Below are positions 16,277 to 33,929 of a stretch of DNA of 64,000 nt, piece by piece (positions within the stretch are counted from its first letter, which is position 1; each line of letters starts with the position of its first letter). The notes under the pieces are model-generated. The model ran no database searches and was not told where the DNA came from. It was given only the letters and a program-made list of their open reading frames with translations. The stretch covers positions 124,001 to 188,000 of the forward strand of contig NZ_OANS01000002.1 of assembly GCF_900205755.1 (NCBI RefSeq), in the 5' to 3' direction. A program made the translations under genes and the position numbers. This DNA comes from Polynucleobacter meluiroseus (GTDB lineage: Bacteria; Pseudomonadota; Gammaproteobacteria; Burkholderiales; Burkholderiaceae).

Positions 16277-16490
16277 TGAGCAAAGGGGTTTAAGATTGAC
16301 ATTGGTGGCGCCCTTGAAGGCAGGTGCAGTCGAGGTTTCAGGGGTTAAGCACGCAAAAATGGTATTATTCTCCCATTCGAAACTTAATTAATTACCCTAG
16401 CGCTTAAAGACACTCACCTCCCGCACAAACAGTCCTGGGTTGGTCTTTTTGGGGTGTTGAGCGTCGGATGGAGCAGGGACTGGAGATGGT

Positions 16491-17684
16491 TTGTCACCCT
16501 TGCTTCCTTCTTTTCCTCCTGCCGTACTGGCTCTCGCCGACGGCACAATCTTTAGTGGCCTCAGTATTGGCGCCGCTGGTGAAACTTCCGGTGAACTGGT
16601 ATTTAATACAGCACTGACCGGTTATCAAGAAATTCTGACTGACCCAAGTTATTCGTCCCAAATTGTGACTTTGACCTATCCCCATATTGGGAATGTTGGG
16701 GTCAATCATCAAGATACGGAATCCGCGCAAATTCACGCAGCTGGCTTAGTCATCAAAGATCTGTCTAAGCGGGTGTCCAACTTTCGCTCTGAAGAAAGCC
16801 TTGATGCTTACTTAGTCAAAGCTGGTGTTGTGGGTATTTCTGGAATTGATACCCGCAAACTCACTCGTATTCTGCGAGACGGCGGCGCTCAAGCCAGCGC
16901 AATTGTGGCGGGCAAGTTGGGAGATGACATCGAATCCCTTACTCAAAAAGCGCTTCAATTAGCGCAAACCTTTCCCGGTATGTCTGGTTTAGATTTGGCT
17001 AAAGTAGTCAGTACAAAAGCCCCTTATGAATGGCGCGAAGCCGAATGGGAATTGCATGGTCCCGATGGCACTCCAGCCTTCAAAACATTAGATCAAAGTA
17101 AGCCGGTTAAAAAAGTCGTTGCGTATGACTTTGGCGTGAAGCGAAACATTTTACGTATGCTGACAGGGCGTGGTTGCCAAATTACTGTGGTGCCAGCACA
17201 AACCAGTGCAGCGGAAGTTCTAGCCATGAATCCCGACGGCATTTTTCTCTCGAATGGTCCTGGCGATCCCCAACCTTGTGATTATGCGATTGCTGCTGTT
17301 AAAGAGTTTATTGAGCAGGGGATTCCGACATTTGGTATTTGTCTTGGGCACCAAATTATGGGCTTGGCTGCCGGTGCCAAAACAATCAAGATGAAATTTG
17401 GCCATCACGGCTCTAACCATCCCGTAAAAGATCTTGATACTGGACGAGTAGCTATCACTTCGCAAAATCATGGTTTTGCAGTAGATGCCGCTAGCTTGCC
17501 AAACCACATCCGCATCACCCATGTATCCCTCTTTGATGGATCGTTACAAGGCTTAGCTTGGAAAGATAAGCCGGCGTTTTGTTTTCAGGGTCATCCTGAA
17601 GGATCACCTGGTCCTCACGATGTAGCCTATTTATTTGATCGTTTTATGGAGCTGATGAATGCTGCCAAGAAGGAGGGCAAATAA
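16491..17684 (+). CDS. carA: Carbamoyl-phosphate synthase small (glutaminase) subunit
   Basis: This 397-residue subunit releases ammonia from glutamine and passes it to CarB, for arginine and pyrimidine synthesis. The N-terminal domain opens with [14 protein letters not shown], and the class I glutamine amidotransferase domain has the nucleophile in [14 protein letters not shown] and the His/Glu in [13 protein letters not shown]. The best start is TTG 16491, preceded at 5-8 bases by GGAG; no in-frame ATG fits. The 214-base upstream gap is the likely promoter region; I see only weak -10-like TATTAT near 16363. The stop overlaps carB (TAATG). Confidence 0.95.
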
Positions 17685-26334: not shown

Positions 26335-26421
26335 TGGTGCCCAGAAGAGGACTCGAACCTCCACAACCTTTCGATCGCCAGCACCTGAAGCTGGTGCGTC
26401 TACCAATTTCGCCATCTGGGC
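26335..26421 (-). tRNA. tRNA-Leu (anticodon CAG)
   Basis: Read on the minus strand, this 87-base gene starts GCCCAGA and ends with the paired TCTGGGC, a discriminator A and an encoded CCA. The anticodon stem CCAGC/GCTGG encloses the loop TTCAGGT, giving anticodon CAG for CUG codons. The long variable arm and GGTTCGAGTCC T arm fit a class II leucine tRNA. It lies alone between folP and rnr, which are on the other strand. Confidence 0.97.
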
Positions 26422-31285: not shown

Positions 31286-31996
31286 ATGAATCAGGATCAA
31301 CTAAAACAATTGGTGGGGGAGGCGGCTCGTGATGAGGTGCTCAAGCTGGCTGCAGGGCAAATCATTGGCGTAGGTACTGGCTCGACGGTCAATTACTTCA
31401 TTGATGCGCTGGCACCTCACGTAGATCATTTCGCTGGCACTGTCTCTAGCTCTAATGCGACTACAGAGCGCCTGCTTAAGCATGGATTTAGTGTGCTTGA
31501 TCCTAATAGTGTTTCTTCACTACCCGCTTATGTCGATGGCGCAGATGAAATCGATGCTGATGGCAATATGATTAAGGGCGGGGGCGGCGCTTTAACCCGT
31601 GAAAAAATTATTGCCTCTATGGCAAAGCAGTTTATTTGCATCTGCGATACCTCCAAACAAGTGCCCACCCTCGGAAAGTTTGCCTTACCAGTAGAAATTA
31701 TTCCTTTGGCTCAAGGCGTGGTGGCCCGTAAATTGGAAAAGCTAGGCGGGGTAGTTACTCTTCGTTTGGCTAAAAATACCCGTTTGGATCTTGAGCAAAC
31801 TCCCAGCCAACCATTTGTGACGGACAACGGGGGGTGGATTTTAGATATTGCCGGTCTTGTTATTACCGATCCATTATTGCTGGAATCGCAAATCAATCAA
31901 ATTGCTGGGGTGATTTCAGTGGGCTTGTTCGCCCAAGAAAAAGCAAGCATTTTGTTGGTTAGTGGTACTTCGGGCGTGAGTCGAATCACTTTCTAA
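31286..31996 (+). CDS. rpiA: Ribose-5-phosphate isomerase A
   Basis: This 236-residue enzyme interconverts ribose-5-phosphate and ribulose-5-phosphate. Motifs: IIGVGTGSTVNYFID (phosphate binding), YVDGADEIDADGNMIKGGGGALTREKI (catalytic acidic residues and the Lys-Gly loop), and the FALPVEIIPLA block. Length is slightly above E. coli RpiA (219). It is divergent from tal in the same pathway. Its stop codon lies immediately before the terminator of the opposing small RNA. Confidence 0.97.
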   Translation: MNQDQLKQLVGEAARDEVLKLAAGQIIGVGTGSTVNYFIDALAPHVDHFAGTVSSSNATTERLLKHGFSVLDPNSVSSLPAYVDGADEIDADGNMIKGGGGALTREKIIASMAKQFICICDTSKQVPTLGKFALPVEIIPLAQGVVARKLEKLGGVVTLRLAKNTRLDLEQTPSQPFVTDNGGWILDIAGLVITDPLLLESQINQIAGVISVGLFAQEKASILLVSGTSGVSRITF

Positions 31997-32028
31997 ATAA
32001 AAAACCCGACGGGGTATCCCATCGGGTT
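31995..32028 (-). terminator. Terminator of the small RNA
   Basis: On the minus strand AACCCGA (32022-32028) pairs with TCGGGTT (32003-32009), with an inner GGG/CCC extension after one mismatch, and then runs into TTTTTTATTT. The T-run is on the minus side; the plus side has only CGTTTG, so it is directed at the minus strand though it could weakly stop rpiA transcripts. Confidence 0.85.
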
Positions 32029-32155
32029 CGTTTGCCATGGTTTCCATGGCGAGGCAAATGGAAGAATGATGTTCCGAGTGCCCAATAAGCATATAGATAT
32101 GCTTAGCTTAAGTGGCTTGCGCCAATGTGATTGGGCACTAATGCTACCCAACCAC
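31998..32155 (-). ncRNA. Probable structured small RNA, about 158 nt, unnamed
   Basis: The stretch between rpiA and yggX holds no credible protein gene but all parts of a small RNA on the minus strand. A promoter (-35 TTGACG, 17-base spacer, -10 TAGGAT) points into it and a strong hairpin with a T-run ends it. Inside, a perfect 10-pair stem (32130-32139 with 32077-32086) encloses two hairpins: a four-pair stem capped by a GCAA tetraloop (32113-32124) and an AT-rich hairpin (32087-32104). A third hairpin, GCCATGG with CCATGGC (32034-32050), precedes the terminator. I recognise no named family; it does not look like 6S, SRP RNA or tmRNA. Confidence 0.7.
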
Positions 32156-32161
32156 AACTTC

Positions 32162-32190
32162 ATCCTATGCTTCTTCAAATCCACCGTCAA
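32162..32190 (-). promoter_or_regulatory. Sigma-70 promoter of the small RNA
   Basis: Minus strand -35 TTGACG (32185-32190) and -10 TAGGAT (32162-32167) are separated by exactly 17 bases. Both match consensus at most positions. The predicted start is near 32155, inside the yggX-rpiA gap. Confidence 0.75.
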
Positions 32191-32246
32191 GCATTTGCAC
32201 AACATATTCATTTAATTTAAGTAATGCAGTGCAGTATTTAAAAAGC

Positions 32247-32519
32247 TTACTCTGCCTCGGGCACATAACCCTGCGCCATATCGGCACCGCCCTCGAAGAA
32301 GTACTTCTCCACTTGTTTTAAAAGATACTGACGCGCTCTAGGATCGGCCATATTTAAGCGATTCTCATTAATCAACATGGTTTGATGCTTTAACCATCCA
32401 GCCCAGGCCTCTTTCGAAACTTGATTCCAAATTTTCTTGCCGAGATCCCCGGGTAAGGGAGCAAAGTCCATGCCCTCGGCTTCTTTATTGAGTTTGATAC
32501 ATTGAACCATCCGTGCCAT
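32247..32519 (-). CDS. yggX: Fe(2+)-trafficking / oxidative damage protection protein YggX
   Basis: This 90-residue protein belongs to the YggX family, linked to iron handling and protection of iron-sulfur proteins from oxidative damage. It starts [19 protein letters not shown], with the conserved Cys at residue 7, and continues with [22 protein letters not shown] and the [19 protein letters not shown] helix. Length equals the family norm (about 90). It lies 45 bases after argA on the same strand. Confidence 0.96.
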
Positions 32520-32564
32520 TGCTAATGCCTTTCTAAATGCGTTTTGTTTAATGCCAAGTAATGC

Positions 32565-33929
32565 TTATAGGTCTTTGGTTAAGACCATTGACTTACGGTC
32601 CCAGTTGTAAATTTGCTTTCTTTCTTGCGGCAAGTCATCCACAGAGGCGCGTTTAAAGCCACGCTTTAAAAACCAATGTTCTGTTCTAGTTGTTAGTACA
32701 AATAATTTCTTAATACCTTCTTGCTTTGCACGCATTTCAACCCGCTTGAGTAGGCGCTCTCCATCACCTGAACCTTGAACATCTGGATCGACTGCGAGGC
32801 AAGCCAATTCACCAATACCATTGGGAAAGGGAAAGAGGGCGGCGCAACCAAACAAGACGCGGTCGTGCTCAATCACGGAGAACCGGTGGATATCCCGCTC
32901 GATGACATCTTGGCCGCGTGCAGCCAAGATACCTTCTTCTTCCAAAGGACTGGTGAGCTGCAAAATACCACCAACGTCATCTTGATTTGCTTCACGCAAA
33001 TTCTCAATATCGGATGAAGCTAACATCATGCCAATACCATCATGCGTGAAGAGTTCCTCAAGCAGAGCGCCATCCTGATTTGCGGGCAAGAAATGTACTC
33101 GGCTAACGCCTGCACGAATCGCTCTTCCGGAGATGTTGAGTAGGTTTTTCATACCCAGGTCTAAATCGGGATGCTGTGTAATGTACTCGTTTAATTGCGG
33201 CATTGACATTTCGGTGATGAAATCACCGTCACTATCTTTTAAGCCTGGGTAAGGGCTGAGGAAAATCAATTTATCCGCCTTGACAGCGGCCGCGGTTGAC
33301 GCGGCAACATCCTCGAAGGCTAAGTTAAATGCTTGCCCAGTGGGGGAGAATCCGAGTGGGGACAGCAACACAATTTTGTTGCTATCTAAAGAGATTTTGA
33401 TGGAGGTCGAATCGACCTTACGCACTAAGCCAGTGTGAATGTAATCCACACCTTCAACTACGCCCACTGGCATCGCTGTAATAAAGTTACCTGAAATCAC
33501 CGAAATACGTGAACCTGCCATTGGGGTGTTTGGCAGCCCACGACTAAAGGCGGCCTCAATGTCTAATCTTAATTCGCCGGCCGCTTCTTTCACACACTCT
33601 AAAGCGGCGGCGTCGGTGATGCGGTAGTTGTGCATAGCGCTCTTACCAAATTGACTTTGGATATTGCGCAGTGTGAGTTGCTCTTCGATTTGTGGGCGAA
33701 TGCCGTGAACCAAGATGATGCGCATGCCCATCGCATGGAGCATGGCGATATCCTCAATCAAGTTCTCAAGGCCGATCTCTTGGGCCAGCTCTCCTGCAAA
33801 AGCGATGACAAAGGTCTTTTCGCGGAAGCTGTGGATATAGGGCGCTACGTCGCGCAACCACCCCACGAATGGAAAATTAGGACTTGTTTCTTCAGAGTTG
33901 GAAACGGAATTCGGTGCATTTGTCGGCAT
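32565..33929 (-). CDS. argA: Amino-acid N-acetyltransferase (N-acetylglutamate synthase)
   Basis: This 454-residue enzyme acetylates glutamate, the first and feedback-controlled step of arginine synthesis. An amino-acid kinase-like domain fills residues 35-300 (IILVHGIRPQIEEQL, LSPLGFSPTGQAFNLAFEDVA), and a GNAT acetyltransferase domain follows (about 310-445), with the acetyl-CoA loop in VDPDVQGSGDGERLL. The bifunctional arrangement matches E. coli ArgA. Its start codon is 17 bases from the hrpA start on the other strand, so control regions overlap. It links functionally to carAB in this window. Confidence 0.95.
   Translation of the reverse strand: MPTNAPNSVSNSEETSPNFPFVGWLRDVAPYIHSFREKTFVIAFAGELAQEIGLENLIEDIAMLHAMGMRIILVHGIRPQIEEQLTLRNIQSQFGKSAMHNYRITDAAALECVKEAAGELRLDIEAAFSRGLPNTPMAGSRISVISGNFITAMPVGVVEGVDYIHTGLVRKVDSTSIKISLDSNKIVLLSPLGFSPTGQAFNLAFEDVAASTAAAVKADKLIFLSPYPGLKDSDGDFITEMSMPQLNEYITQHPDLDLGMKNLLNISGRAIRAGVSRVHFLPANQDGALLEELFTHDGIGMMLASSDIENLREANQDDVGGILQLTSPLEEEGILAARGQDVIERDIHRFSVIEHDRVLFGCAALFPFPNGIGELACLAVDPDVQGSGDGERLLKRVEMRAKQEGIKKLFVLTTRTEHWFLKRGFKRASVDDLPQERKQIYNWDRKSMVLTKDL

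Follow-up and report, generated by a model that had tools for sequence, protein, structure and literature searches.

Polynucleobacter is an abundant freshwater genus. The closest described relative of the RNA studied here is the HRC-28-1 motif, for which the available description by Brewer et al. (2021, RNA Biol, PMC8632094) gives 33 unique examples, mostly from Polynucleobacter. According to that description, the commonest upstream gene encodes an oxidative damage protection protein (PRK05408), the commonest downstream gene is rpiA in the opposite orientation, and the motif has six stems, the final one being an intrinsic terminator. It is described there as possibly a structured 3'-UTR element of the upstream gene. 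A second RNA, Polynucleobacter-1 (RF01718; Weinberg et al. 2010, PMC2864571), shares the host group by name. A literature search of limited scope retrieved nothing further on HRC-28-1 beyond PMC8632094, and nothing on small RNAs or transcriptomes of Polynucleobacter beyond that paper and PMC2864571.

We analyzed a 64,000-nt stretch of the Polynucleobacter meluiroseus genome (contig NZ_OANS01000002.1, positions 124,001 to 188,000), here called the window. Its minus strand contains an RNA locus (32155-31999, approximately 157 nt, with the start placed 7 nt past the -10 box) that lies between two genes. Upstream and co-oriented is a gene for an Fe2+ trafficking protein (32519-32247, minus strand; Pfam Iron_traffic, PF04362), which we take to be yggX. 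Downstream and convergent is rpiA (31286-31996, plus strand; Pfam PF06026). At most 3 nt separate the end of the RNA from the rpiA stop codon, and the RNA and rpiA do not overlap. It has six stems with the terminator last, P4/P5 forming one interrupted stem. It is near certain that this RNA is HRC-28-1, a judgement based on its position and orientation, its host and the number of its stems, the letters of the consensus lying outside the comparison. The RNA has thus been in print since 2021, listed as a motif to which no function was assigned. Compared with the 33 examples and the 3'-UTR idea in the available description, we found the RNA in 102 of 145 genomes, with a conserved promoter and with relocated copies.

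No Rfam 15 family reached its gathering score at the locus, and a search with E values up to 10 gave five weak matches, all far below the gathering scores. When seven loci with relocated copies were searched, only one tRNA was matched. The HRC-28-1 locus is thus matched by no Rfam 15 family, which also separates it from Polynucleobacter-1 RNA if, as we assume, RF01718 is present in this release. The initial annotation had recognized no named RNA family; this agrees with the Rfam cmscan, but the motif is in print under the name HRC-28-1. 6S RNA is a structured bacterial RNA of similar length. It (RF00013) was rejected as a candidate, since the locus gave no match over the gathering score and the genome has its own 6S copy at G000:C4:127409-127627. 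A separate 6S match was present in all 13 genus genomes searched (over the cut-off in 12), and the long closing stem of 6S RNA is absent from HRC-28-1.

A sigma70-type promoter (32190-32162, minus strand; -35 TTGACG at 32190-32185, 17-nt spacer, -10 TAGGAT at 32167-32162) and an intrinsic terminator with a run of six T (32029-31999, minus strand; pattern match at 32029-32002) had both been marked in the initial annotation. By themselves, such matches occur about as often as chance would give: the 1200 bases from 31500 to 32700 contain three promoter-like sites against 1.9 in shuffles, and two terminator-like sites against 1.4. Their support comes from conservation alone. The boxes TTGAC[A/G/T] and TAG[G/C]AT, 16-17 nt apart, were found in all 60 copies with sequence there. 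Over 59 rows (L060 and L061 left out), TTGAC does not vary, each of its columns holding 2.0 bits. Below 1 bit are 13 of the 15 columns preceding the promoter and 10 of the 17 in the spacer, and the five spacer columns adjoining the -10 box are conserved at 1.0-2.0 bits. A relaxed promoter pattern occurs a single time in the whole window, at the RNA.

The gene context is similarly regular. yggX lies 46-105 nt upstream in the same orientation (median 69, the distance running between the final aligned residue of yggX and a point 6 nt ahead of the inferred RNA start) in 59 of the 61 copies of our first set, and was not seen in the fetched stretch of the remaining two; rpiA is convergent in 60 of the 61. 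The tightest gaps between yggX and the RNA hold little beyond the promoter. In the genome G097, a second -10/start-like stretch, TAGGATGAAG, was observed approximately 50 nt upstream of the RNA, just before the promoter (locus L186); it is possibly a remnant, or due to chance.

The minus-strand RNA folds at -72.4 kcal/mol; shuffled versions average -41.6, and none of 200 folds as well (z -7.35). RNAalifold was applied to 60 MAFFT-aligned copies (L060, which is truncated at a contig end, was omitted) and gave seven helices, corresponding to six stem-loops when P4/P5 is counted once. In this alignment, 98.4% of cells pair, 25 of 47 pairs are changed on both sides and covariation scores 0.260, with shuffles at 0.146 and none of 500 reaching the observed score, values that are biased in favour of the structure, because it is the alignment's own consensus, and that include the effect of kinship, which alone can beat shuffles. 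Sliding the partners by 1-3 columns lowered pairing to 35-41%. The changes on both sides argue more strongly for the predicted fold than the shuffle comparison does. They amounted to 34 of 47 pairs in a model-fitted alignment of 53 sequences including diverged copies, which were picked from the available loci to limit near-copies (L213-L216 lay outside the analysis), and to 30 of 47 pairs in 15 diverged or relocated copies, also in a model-fitted alignment. The predicted fold, a row of hairpins with 47 pairs, is well supported.

The 5' hairpin P1 (32155-32127, minus strand like all parts of the RNA) has 10 consensus pairs, 7 of them changed on both sides, and its apex is CAG-N5-GUG in most copies. 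A 5' single strand had been put forward as a target-pairing seed; it is instead the 5' arm of this covarying hairpin. P2, a short hairpin of the consensus fold (UGGC-GCAA-GCCA, 32124-32113), is the GCAA-capped hairpin that had been described before. Its loop is GNRA (GCAA) in the window copy and GAAA in most relatives, and both-side changes were absent in the 60-copy alignment and affected 3 of 4 pairs in the 53-sequence alignment. P2 differs in copies near a PIN-domain gene (see below). The GNRA loop caps a short hairpin; L182 has the hairpin without GNRA, and P2, otherwise strongly conserved, is lost in an rpiA-site copy (L207:2600-2748, genome G347). P3 (32105-32086) has the apex CAUCUAUG and 9 consensus pairs, with both-side changes at 5 in the 60-copy and 7 in the 53-sequence alignment. 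P4/P5 (32083-32052) is a hairpin interrupted by an internal loop (GGGC.../GGAA...UUCC.../GCCU) with 8 consensus pairs; 5 of these 8 changed on both sides in the former alignment and 7 in the latter, and in diverged copies just 71% of cells pair in the P4 helix. P6 (32050-32034; GCCATGG-AAA-CCATGGC), previously described as a 7-pair hairpin, does exist, with 6 consensus pairs and 4 both-side changes. The terminator stem, helix 7, is paired in 99.8% of cells.

The initial annotation had also placed a 10-pair stem at 32077-32086/32130-32139, enclosing two hairpins as a three-way junction. This stem is absent from the minimum-energy fold, and forcing it costs approximately 8 kcal/mol. When its pairing was examined across 59 distinct relatives (columns 23-32 with 86-95), 65.2% of cells paired, a level reached by 490 of 500 shuffles. 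The three-way junction falls with its stem, and the fold that the alignments support is the row of hairpins.

A DNA-level match to the RNA was detected in 61 of 101 sampled Polynucleobacter genomes. Covariance model R1 detected it in 65 of the 101, and model R2, built from a wider sequence set, in 102 of 145 genus genomes with a completeness of at least 90%, the best match exceeding 86 bits in each of the 102. Matches of R2 below 32 bits come from the other strand, overlapping the RNA site itself. The presence in 102 of 145 genomes suggests that the RNA likely matters to the cell. When 200 genomes of the family and 300 of the order were sampled, model matches of 26-36 bits appeared in 11 genomes from other genera (six from one search and five from the other). 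In the three that were read residue by residue (L193, L194 and L195), the score came mainly from the terminator; the remaining eight are known from score alone. As far as the sampled genomes show, clear copies are confined to Polynucleobacter, the searches outside the 145-genome set being samples of each group. The best matches outside the genus, at approximately 36 bits, are L193:2488-2611 (G260) and L200 (G111), both in one other genus of the family. L193 contains the terminator and a P2-like hairpin, and was not counted as a copy because P3 and most of P4/P5 are missing. A distant relative of the RNA may be present there.

Reading the surroundings of the loci revealed 12 copies in 11 genomes that are away from rpiA and yggX, at five sites. 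Eight are at a PIN-domain gene (G069, G063, G054, G277, G307, G297, G318 and G339), one lies between azlD and a divergent lysR-type gene (G011), and one adjoins a divergent gene for a ChrR-like cupin (G097). The other two are in G341, one after a gene with HemN-type domains and one adjoining a divergent TctC-family gene. Domain names of neighbours were assigned with Pfam on examples, and neighbouring ORFs were listed from 100 aa up. Three sites (azl, G097 and the second of G341) have a divergent upstream gene, and directly upstream of the RNA they lack any co-oriented ORF of at least 100 aa. The PIN site and one G341 site do have a co-oriented ORF, approximately 120-190 nt upstream. At the G097 and first G341 sites, a co-oriented ORF begins 45-65 nt past the RNA, and a leader role is conceivable there; the remaining ten relocated copies are followed by a convergent ORF. 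All 12 keep the -35 sequence TTGAC, and the G341 copies have weaker -10 boxes (TAGAAT and TAGAGT). A tree of 61 RNA copies places the rpiA-site copies in one group and the PIN-site copies in another, which suggests a single old event for each site and not repeated jumping. The two G341 copies (L205:2674-2842 and L206:2652-2818) are related to each other and occupy two sites, by duplication or contamination; this genome is a draft with 2% estimated contamination, and both copies need confirmation.

Conversely, the RNA is missing from some genomes that have both neighbours. In the single-contig genomes G065, G079 and G082, both genes were found (82-97% identity) with stop codons 8-10 nt apart, and no covariance-model match to the RNA was obtained. 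G088, also one contig, has a longer yggX-rpiA gap with a terminator (approximately 18-20 bits), and the model did not match there at the threshold searched. Together with the relocated copies, these four genomes show that yggX can lack the RNA and that the RNA can stand apart from yggX. The linkage to yggX and rpiA says little on function, because the 12 copies examined sit elsewhere.

Comparison among relatives provides good evidence for an autonomous RNA gene. At the sequence level, a conserved putative promoter, covarying hairpins and a predicted terminator make up one unit, and this unit recurs at several unrelated sites in the genus. The proposal of Brewer et al. that the RNA is a structured element of the yggX 3'-UTR, which would act as stabilizer and terminator, fits the steady position of 59 first-set copies behind yggX and the lack of a terminator-like site between yggX and the RNA in a pattern scan of this region of the window. 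Such an element should follow yggX and have no promoter of its own; instead, all 60 copies with sequence there conserve the predicted promoter, the RNA occurs at five sites away from yggX (three of them with a divergent upstream gene), and yggX lacks it in G065, G079, G082 and G088. We consider this explanation unlikely as a full account, and the published suggestion looks incomplete. The earlier view of a self-contained RNA that is more than a 3'-UTR remnant gains from the same promoter conservation and from the -35 box kept in the relocated copies. It is very unlikely that the locus is an antisense RNA or a bidirectional terminator serving rpiA. The RNA does end next to the rpiA stop codon, and weak opposite-strand model matches recur at the same site in several genomes, but these matches (25-31 bits) overlap the terminator end of the RNA site, there is no overlap between the RNA and rpiA, a terminator needs no five extra covarying helices, and copies exist away from rpiA. 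One further weak match of this opposite-strand type, in G013, sits elsewhere. To a small-protein gene we give almost no credence. An open 72-codon frame does span 32211-31993 and had been judged uncoded in the initial annotation. It is not conserved: 56 of 61 aligned regions have at least two stops in all three frames of the RNA strand, for which reason the small protein was rejected. In addition, transcript lengths vary among copies by steps not divisible by three, and the pair covariation is strong.

How an autonomous RNA would act is a question between base pairing and shape. We give an even chance to HRC-28-1 being an autonomous small RNA gene whose product would base-pair with mRNAs in trans. 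The genome encodes Hfq (103.7 bits), and a search of it for a ProQ-type protein found none, which makes an Hfq-assisted trans-acting sRNA our first choice. Hfq-dependent trans-acting sRNAs such as MicL and Qrr have their own promoter, a row of stems and a U-tailed intrinsic terminator. HRC-28-1 resembles them in all three features, its promoter being recognized by sequence, but a conserved unpaired seed was not found in it. Sigma70 would transcribe a stable RNA of approximately 157 nt from a start near 32155, with the 5' end closed in P1 and the 3' end formed by the terminator hairpin and a U tail. With Hfq, this RNA is predicted to pair with mRNAs in trans through loops and short linkers. Beside yggX, the yggX mRNA probably reads into the same terminator, and the RNA would then also be a message tail, though this would not be its main role. 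Since no terminator-like site precedes the RNA next to yggX, some of it is probably made as yggX 3'-UTR.

The base-pairing step is weakened by the conservation pattern. Unpaired columns average 0.99 bits and paired columns 1.46 bits (70 and 94 columns, the unpaired set including six before the inferred start), so no obvious pairing seed emerges and recognition by shape is favoured. This pattern, the loss of P2 in L207 and the lack of an outstanding seed make a protein-binding RNA a serious rival, namely an autonomous RNA that acts by shape and binds, titrates or controls a protein like 6S or CsrB-type RNAs. We regard this as possible, and as clearly less probable than pairing in trans. The 5' end and most of the RNA length lie within stems, and the apices CAG-N5-GUG and CAUCUAUG are conserved in most copies, both consistent with shape recognition. 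In CsrB and RsmZ, however, GGA is repeated in loops, unlike the conserved GGA of HRC-28-1, which is in stem P5. The RNA is not 6S, whose own copy is at G000:C4, and a search for ProQ as a candidate protein partner found none. More tentatively, HRC-28-1 could be a genus-specific autonomous RNA gene that moved, and was perhaps duplicated, with its promoter, and that is a new protein-binding regulatory RNA selected for its shape; we hold this version to be doubtful.

For annotation, HRC-28-1 is better described as a separate promoter-bearing small RNA gene than as yggX 3'-UTR only. What is new beyond print is evidence bearing on the 3'-UTR guess: the promoter conservation, the five other sites and the yggX/rpiA pairs free of the RNA. 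The natural absence of the RNA in some species provides ready-made comparisons.

Two other RNA features were observed in the window. A carA motif RNA (RF04192, 171 bits) is located at 16304-16499 on the plus strand; the carA motif is listed among the riboswitch candidates in the available text of PMC8632094. A tRNA gene was detected with Rfam at 26338-26421 on the minus strand.
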